From assembly GCA_001774685.1 (NCBI GenBank), contig MFAS01000001.1:671557-705484 (forward strand): a stretch of DNA of 33,928 bases, written 5' to 3'. Below the pieces are notes generated by a model. The model ran no database searches, was not told the DNA's origin, and saw only the letters and a list, made by a program, of their open reading frames with translations. Shown one piece after another: positions 24,882-25,188 of the stretch (position 1 is the stretch's first letter; each line of letters starts with the position of its first letter). The stretch comes from Candidatus Collierbacteria bacterium RIFOXYD2_FULL_45_13 (lineage in GTDB: Bacteria; Patescibacteriota; Microgenomatia; UBA1400; MFAQ01). The position numbers and the translations under genes are program-made.

Positions 24882-24889
24882 TACTATTG

Positions 24890-24962
24890 TGACCCCGGCG
24901 GGACTCGAACCCGCGATATTCAGGATGAAAACCTGACGTCCTAACCGCTAGACGACGGGGCC
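24890..24962 (-). tRNA. tRNA-Glu (anticodon UUC)
   Basis: Read on the minus strand, the acceptor stem GGCCCCG pairs with CGGGGTC (one G-U). The anticodon arm is TCAGG-TTTTCAT-CCTGA with TTC at 34-36, and the T-arm is CGCGGGTTCGAGTCCCGC. The discriminator base is A and no CCA is encoded. It is the last gene of the minus-strand tRNA unit and, with tRNA-Lys, encloses an unassigned structured element. It also supplies the substrate of Glu-tRNA-Gln type misacylation if GluRS here is non-discriminating. Confidence 0.97.
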
Positions 24963-24974
24963 AAATGTTAATAA

Positions 24975-25076
24975 GGTGGGTCAGGCGGGACTCCCTTCAG
25001 TAAATCTCTGCTGAGATTTCTTCAGGACCTGGCTCAGCACCGTCGTGCTTCCGCCTTTCGAGTCCGTCTGTCCACC
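24975..25076. ncRNA. three-way-junction structured element between tRNAs
   Basis: This 102-nt stretch is not coding and folds strongly. GGTGGG-T-CAGGCGG-G-ACTC (24975-24993) pairs with GAGTCCGTCTGTCCACC (25060-25076) in about 17 bp with two bulged bases. Inside are hairpin A (24994-25026; AAATCTC-TGCT-GAGATTT plus CCT/AGG) and hairpin B (25031-25055; AGCAC-CGTC-GTGCT plus GGC/GCC). The plus-strand fold keeps two G-U pairs that become A-C on the minus strand. It matches no RNA class I know (SRP, 6S, 5S, RNase P). Its 24976-24993 end repeats tRNA-Lys. It may be an RNA, or a DNA-level palindrome left by a mobile element. Confidence 0.5.
24976..24993. repeat. 18-bp direct repeat of the tRNA-Lys 3' end (distal copy)
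   Basis: GTGGGTCAGGCGGGACTC here is identical to 25114-25131, the part of tRNA-Lys that encodes its acceptor 3' strand and half of the T arm. The flanking bases differ on both sides. Direct repeats of a tRNA 3' end are the usual scar of tRNA-targeted integration. Confidence 0.75.
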
Positions 25077-25079
25077 GTA

Positions 25080-25116
25080 CACAACACATTTTACCGCGAG
25101 GGTAAAATATATTGTG
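25080..25116 (-). terminator. 16-bp hairpin directly after tRNA-Lys
   Basis: On the minus strand CACAATATATTTTACC pairs with GGTAAAATGTGTTGTG (two G-U pairs, loop CTCGC). It begins at the discriminator base of tRNA-Lys. The stem is best on the minus strand, so it is probably a terminator, attenuator or 3'-processing signal for tRNA-Lys; it lacks a T-run. Confidence 0.5.
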
Positions 25117-25188
25117 GGTCAGGCGGGACTCGAACCCGCGACACCCTGCTTAAAAGGCAGGTGCTCTAACCGACTGAGCTACTGACCC
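25115..25188 (-). tRNA. tRNA-Lys (anticodon UUU)
   Basis: On the minus strand GGGTCAG pairs with CTGACCC. The D arm has GCTCAGTCGGTTAGAGC, the anticodon arm is CCTGC-CTTTTAA-GCAGG with TTT at 34-36, and the T arm is CGCGGGTTCGAGTCCCGC. The discriminator is A and no CCA is encoded, so a CCA-adding enzyme is required. A TGA-TAAAAT (25213 to 25205, minus strand) is the likely promoter. Confidence 0.97.

Follow-up and report, generated by a model that had tools for sequence, protein, structure and literature searches.

What is the three-way junction of 102 nt that occupies positions 24975-25076, between the genes for tRNA-Lys and tRNA-Glu, of the window (the whole 33,928-nucleotide stretch analysed here, part of a 1.09-Mb genome that forms a single contig, is labelled G000 and, judged by RuvC, has Candidatus Collierbacteria as its closest named relatives)? 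A preliminary description of the sequence had drawn a closing stem (24975-24993 with 25060-25076) around two hairpins (24994-25026 and 25031-25055), and sequence and fold confirmed the stem, both hairpins and all coordinates. With RNA parameters, the stretch folds with a minimum free energy of -45.8 kcal/mol on the plus strand and -44.6 kcal/mol on the minus strand (z -4.50 and -4.60, respectively), and none of 200 dinucleotide shuffles folded equally well. With DNA parameters, the junction gave z values of -3.4 and -3.6. The description could name no RNA class for the element, and this held: the only Rfam matches here are the two tRNAs, and a scan of the element against Rfam 15 returned no family above threshold, the best sub-threshold match having an E value of 3.8. 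A hammerhead-like core was considered and rejected on inspection, CUGANGA- and GAAA-like strings being present and the geometry of a cleavage site absent. A search of the open-licence literature found no description of the element, which is apparently an undescribed insertable DNA element of Collierbacteria.

Three features overlooked in the preliminary description tie the junction to tRNA-Lys, and all parts are given here on the minus strand. The tRNA-Lys(ttt) gene (25114-25188; ARAGORN, Rfam tRNA 77.5 bits) carries the unit, which presumably docks at the T-arm and 3' end of this gene. Directly 3' of it, in the interval before the junction, lies a terminator-like inverted repeat, hp1 (25080-25116), with 16-bp arms and a CTCGC loop (consensus CTNGN), which shares the three terminal bases of the tRNA and belongs to the same unit as the junction. 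The 5' arm of the closing stem, antiT (25057-25076), is the reverse complement of the tRNA-Lys 3'-end sequence, exact against the T-arm (GGACTCGAA) and imperfect against the acceptor strand. The 3' arm, T-copy (24976-24993), is an exact 18-nt direct repeat of the tRNA-Lys 3' end (25113-25130) and also forms the downstream border of the insertion. Both arm assignments draw on the comparisons with the local tRNA given below, antiT on a match beyond permutation and T-copy on an identity test. The arms enclose hairpin A (25031-25055; GGC GGA stem GACG stem GA GCC) and hairpin B (24994-25026; tandem G-A mismatches, an AGCA loop and a bulged A), which were defined by fold and by covariation of helices 2 and 3 and helices 4 and 5, respectively. 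On the tRNA strand the unit thus reads hp1, antiT, hairpin A, hairpin B and T-copy; it spans about 150 bp and has no ORF. The tRNA-Glu(ttc) gene (24889-24962; ARAGORN) lies beyond it and follows tRNA-Lys directly where the site is empty.

A lack of homologues with compensatory changes would have spoken against the preliminary description, and this was clearly not the case. Homologous stretches were present in relatives, at tRNA-Lys and also behind other tRNAs, and covariance-model searches of related genomes found homologues with compensatory changes. A first model built on nine copies, in which 22 of 26 pairs showed two-sided changes, gave about 115 matches in 12 of the 16 genomes of one Collierbacteria family, and a second built from 103 copies gave more, including 25 in G013, 21 in G010 and 11 in the window genome. 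The family totals more than 130 copies (about 140 model matches), again in 12 of the 16 genomes, with 0 to 25 copies per genome among relatives, plus one copy in another family of the order, where one genome holds a lone unit whose arms fit the tRNA-Leu of that genome. Across 137 genomes of the class, the two matches outside the family were weak and resembled coding sequence, and a search of 374 class genomes for the T-arm mirror pattern returned family members and chance-like tRNA matches. Carriage by viruses, phages or plasmids was rejected, as two core patterns were absent from IMG/VR and blastn on phage and plasmid records gave no match.

Compensatory change was seen in 25 of the 26 pairs among 114 distinct copies. 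Paired cells made up 93.8% against 62.6% in shuffled alignments, cells with two-sided changes numbered 963 against 298, and the covariation score was 0.752 against 0.226 (at most 0.115 when partners were slid); the 114-copy alignment was fitted to the structure and includes a few doubtful weak matches, neither effect of which nears these margins. The results show structural selection.

Where do the copies lie? Directly behind a tRNA gene we found 84 copies, all on the tRNA strand and together serving 29 isoacceptors; the distance from tRNA to copy is 40-61 nt in 83 of them, with a mode of 46. Further copies follow tmRNA. Units are found behind almost every kind of tRNA gene. A strong hairpin, hp1, is present in 83 of the 84 spacers between tRNA and junction, and a CTNG hairpin loop follows 38 of 56 tRNAs with units compared to 8 of 156 without; therefore hp1 is part of the unit.

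In the tRNA-adjacent units, antiT reverse-complements the T-arm of the very tRNA that it follows and matches T-loop bases missing from T-copy, unusual loops included, while T-copy reproduces that tRNA's 3' end, often through the base after the discriminator. Exact complementarity of antiT to its own tRNA averages 9.56 nt, compared to 5.81 nt with permuted partners (2000 permutations, maximum 6.45), and identity of T-copy to its own tRNA averages 13.4 nt, compared to 5.6 nt permuted. No other tRNA makes a better partner than the own one for T-copy in 83% of copies and for antiT in 57%, because T-arms resemble one another. Judged by these sequence comparisons, both arms track the local tRNA far beyond chance. 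The arms of the 84 units read GGANTCGAAC / GANTCC, as set by the T-arm of the tRNA. Ahead of antiT, there is at best a weak trace of a complete inverted acceptor-strand copy. A short palindrome of the CCTGCCGGCAGGCAGG type, apparently another small repeat, interrupts T-copy at the downstream ends of several units (L077, L091, L089, L148 and L114).

Comparison of relatives showed that these units insert. The Lys T-arm and tRNA-Glu stand 32-33 nt apart in four genomes whose site is empty, 174-185 nt in five genomes with one unit, the window genome among them, and 322 nt in G007, which carries two, a window-type unit followed by one of a type that is solitary in G009. The tRNA 3' end is duplicated over 18-21 nt and the tRNA is left intact. 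With a duplicated 3' end, an intact tRNA and empty sites in relatives, the units have what is looked for in a tRNA-targeting integrative element. Tandem units also occur at Leu, Ser (three), Trp and Asp. Cores that are about 94% identical stand at different tRNAs with locally matching arms, as in the pairs Ser-gct of G013 and Leu-caa of G000, and Arg-tcg of G011 and Glu-ttc of G012. Insertion, duplication, tandem accumulation and arm matching are thus direct observations. The preliminary description had settled on a new small RNA family or an integration remnant; a new structured family, with massive covariation and no Rfam match, and an integrating one, with duplication, empty sites and tandem units, both stood, and what found no support was the plus-strand RNA.

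Most units contain no gene, and a few sites are separated by ORFs; such distal sites still bear the arms of the upstream tRNA. At tRNA-Lys of G005, an ORF of 390 aa lies between the unit and tRNA-Glu. An exchanger gene lies between tRNA-His and the distal site in G010, two ORFs precede the distal site at tRNA-Gln in G006, one of them a Y1 transposase, and a single ORF does so at tRNA-Asp in G012 and G013, the one in G013 having no homologue in the other 15 genomes. The Y1 (IS200-like) transposase gene of G006 (L118:2892-3323, minus strand) sits between two sites of the tRNA-Gln array.

We then asked which molecule folds. A plus-strand RNA had been proposed from two G-U pairs, and this was not upheld: all 84 tRNA-adjacent copies keep the strand of the preceding tRNA, which is the minus strand here. 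Nor did the pairing argument carry over to the family, in which helix changes are almost all from Watson-Crick to Watson-Crick and G-U makes up 1.9% of helix cells, about twice A-C at 1.0% (47 and 26 cells), so that a DNA-level fold fits better. In tRNA stems at the same loci G-U reaches 4.1%, with A-C uncountable there since only called pairs are listed. The Watson-Crick-only variation and the position of hp1 between tRNA and junction suggest, short of proof, that folded single-stranded DNA is to be favoured over RNA. An RNA role may nevertheless exist, as G-U is somewhat above A-C.

attC sites, integron gene cassettes (IntI tyrosine recombinase) and CALINs, which are clusters of attC sites without integron integrases, were taken as defined in PMC9668308. 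Like attC sites, the units are conserved in fold more than in sequence, and the target supplies the 3' arm of their two-armed closing stem. Their structure shows Watson-Crick covariation and folds under DNA parameters, and a single-stranded state, which is presumed, would be a further likeness. Tandem units occur, with genes between a few of the sites, and may correspond to the cassette arrays of integrons. Unlike integrons, they have a tRNA gene as platform instead of an attI next to intI, their arms vary by tRNA, and most are geneless; the fold is a three-way junction rather than one hairpin, the attC boxes RYYYAAC ... GTTRRRY are absent from the closing-stem arms of the 84 units on reading, and an IntI-type integrase was not recognised in the window genome. 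CALINs are likewise arrays of folded sites without a linked integrase gene; each array here, in contrast, is headed by a tRNA gene that matches its arms, and the other differences from integrons apply.

Phages and islands with tyrosine integrases that target tRNA genes insert at the 3' end, share a block of identity from T-loop to tRNA end, restore the tRNA and accrete in tandem. All four traits recur here; the units differ in measuring about 150 bp without an integrase of their own, in using one structural core for 29 isoacceptors and in having an inverted T-arm copy built in. REP and BIME sequences, moved by RAYT (Y1) transposases, are small, dispersed, geneless palindromes recognised as folded single-stranded DNA. 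The units are also small, dispersed, palindromic and mostly geneless, and may be recognised in a folded single-stranded form; they differ in their duplicated target, a location exclusively behind tRNA genes and a presence that Y1 transposases do not track. The element is therefore set apart from integrons, REP/RAYT, retroelements and all Rfam families; it behaves as a tRNA-targeted integrative element, and probably in an attC-like manner as well.

From this analysis we infer that the unit serves for recombination in the manner of an attC site. We give an even chance to the full reading, that of an integron-like insertion site which is anchored at tRNA genes and recombines in the form of folded single-stranded DNA, the leading candidate enzyme being of the Xer type. 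The units would be small insertion cassettes of Collierbacteria, with the 3' ends of tRNA and tmRNA genes as their docking points. The tRNA strand of the unit would fold as single-stranded DNA, with antiT pairing T-copy to recreate a double-stranded version of the tRNA T-arm; a T-arm shares its geometry, a 5-bp stem enclosing a 7-nt loop, with the core of a tyrosine-recombinase site. Hairpins A and B would guide a tyrosine recombinase of the Xer type, which would then exchange the recreated duplex with the T-arm of the real gene, the single-stranded substrate, the enzyme and the crossover position all being putative. Retargeting of a core to a foreign tRNA needs an extra step, because simple exchange there would leave a hybrid tRNA. 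Against an integron-like reading, most units are geneless, unlike integron cassettes, and neither an excised circle nor an intermediate of the reaction was seen.

Four enzyme classes were tested across the genomes (tyrosine recombinases, Y1 transposases, serine recombinases and reverse transcriptases), and of these only tyrosine recombinases occur in all site-bearing genomes, mostly as two Xer-like proteins per genome. Xer-like proteins also occur in site-free genomes of the family and so do not discriminate; the choice of enzyme is thus by elimination, not association. The three tyrosine recombinases of the window genome match XerC, XerD and XerA best and reach at most 113.5 bits against the IntI model TIGR02249 (cut-off 265); the ORFs of its Xer-like proteins lie at G000:C1:811222 and 86631. 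A REP/RAYT mechanism was rejected, Y1_Tnp being absent from G002, G005, G012 and G015, which carry 5-17 sites, and present in the site-free G001, G003, G004 and G014. Serine recombinases were rejected on G010, in which none was found despite 21 sites, and copying of the tRNA end by a reverse transcriptase or retroelement on the finding of RVT_1 in G007 and G005 only. Separately, the gene for the larger Xer-like recombinase adjoins one with a Y1_Tnp-like domain at G007:C17, G008:C7, G009:C52, G010:C25 and G011:C34.

Other explanations were weighed against these data. Units that are small, gene-free and dispersed, with empty sites and target duplications, could belong to a non-autonomous, MITE-like transposable element that enters tRNA 3' ends where an enzyme acting in trans makes a staggered cut, so that 18-21 bp of target are duplicated, its transposase recognising the fold and the enclosed genes being bystanders. 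We consider this possible but doubtful: the units have no terminal inverted repeats of their own, hp1 and both arms vary by copy and follow the local tRNA, and, among the four enzyme classes tested, some site-bearing genomes lack Y1 transposase, some serine recombinase and some reverse transcriptase. A structured RNA read from the tRNA strand and acting in regulation or processing of the upstream tRNA, with antiT switching between the T-arm (misfolding) and T-copy (release), appears improbable. It would explain why distance from the tRNA and strand are constant, the strong and covarying structure, and an antiT that complements the tRNA itself, including T-loop bases missing from T-copy. However, the terminator-like hairpin separates tRNA from junction, G-U is rare, nearly as rare as A-C, copy numbers among relatives run from 0 to 25, one and the same tRNA can have an empty site or tandem units, and genes separate some sites from their tRNA.

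Island insertion, too, would be expected to leave a trace such as the 18-nt repeat of the tRNA 3' end, and the window genome does hold an ordinary integrase-bearing island at tRNA-Asp. That the element is a plain attL/attR scar of such an island, folded by chance, is nevertheless very improbable; it is refuted as a full account by the conserved hairpins and compensatory changes of more than 100 copies, and the tRNA-Asp island displaced a pre-existing two-unit array and has its own, longer attachment sequence. This island (G000:C1:664000-670147; L230, L232) is about 6 kb long, encodes a 333-aa tyrosine integrase and has its nearest edge about 1.4 kb upstream of where the window starts; its far end shows the old 3' part of tRNA-Asp and then the two-unit array. 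Its integrase, which is separate from the units, was rejected as a helper, being present only in the window genome.

Taken further, the integron-like reading would make the units a previously undescribed gene-capture system of Candidate Phyla Radiation bacteria, which we put forward tentatively, at somewhat less than an even chance: nearly every tRNA kind would serve as insertion platform instead of a dedicated attI, through a folded single-stranded site with a built-in T-arm complement and one core for about 30 targets. Integrons are the best-studied system recombining folded single-stranded sites. If true, a tRNA-anchored counterpart would mean that folded-site recombination arose in another form, in tiny and probably host-attached bacteria, and would open a route for genes in which close relatives differ. 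It poses the question of where the arms matching each new tRNA come from after the core moves. With the target (tRNA), the arms and candidate enzymes (Xer-like proteins) now named, the proposal is directly testable.

Two further kinds of unit were noticed. In G014, a genome with no model match, a decayed unit at tRNA-His (L226, approximately 1525-1700) retains hp1 and antiT intact with eroded hairpins, which suggests loss of units. A diverged subtype, with cores GAGTGCCGG ... GGGGGTGA and arms of the GAGGCTCTG type, occurs at L244:2035-2121, L257:3154-3239, L247:7431-7513, L242:2131-2224, L258, L250, L245 and L259; its copies either adjoin tRNA-Arg(ccg) or tRNA-Ile in the opposite orientation or are distant from any tRNA found.
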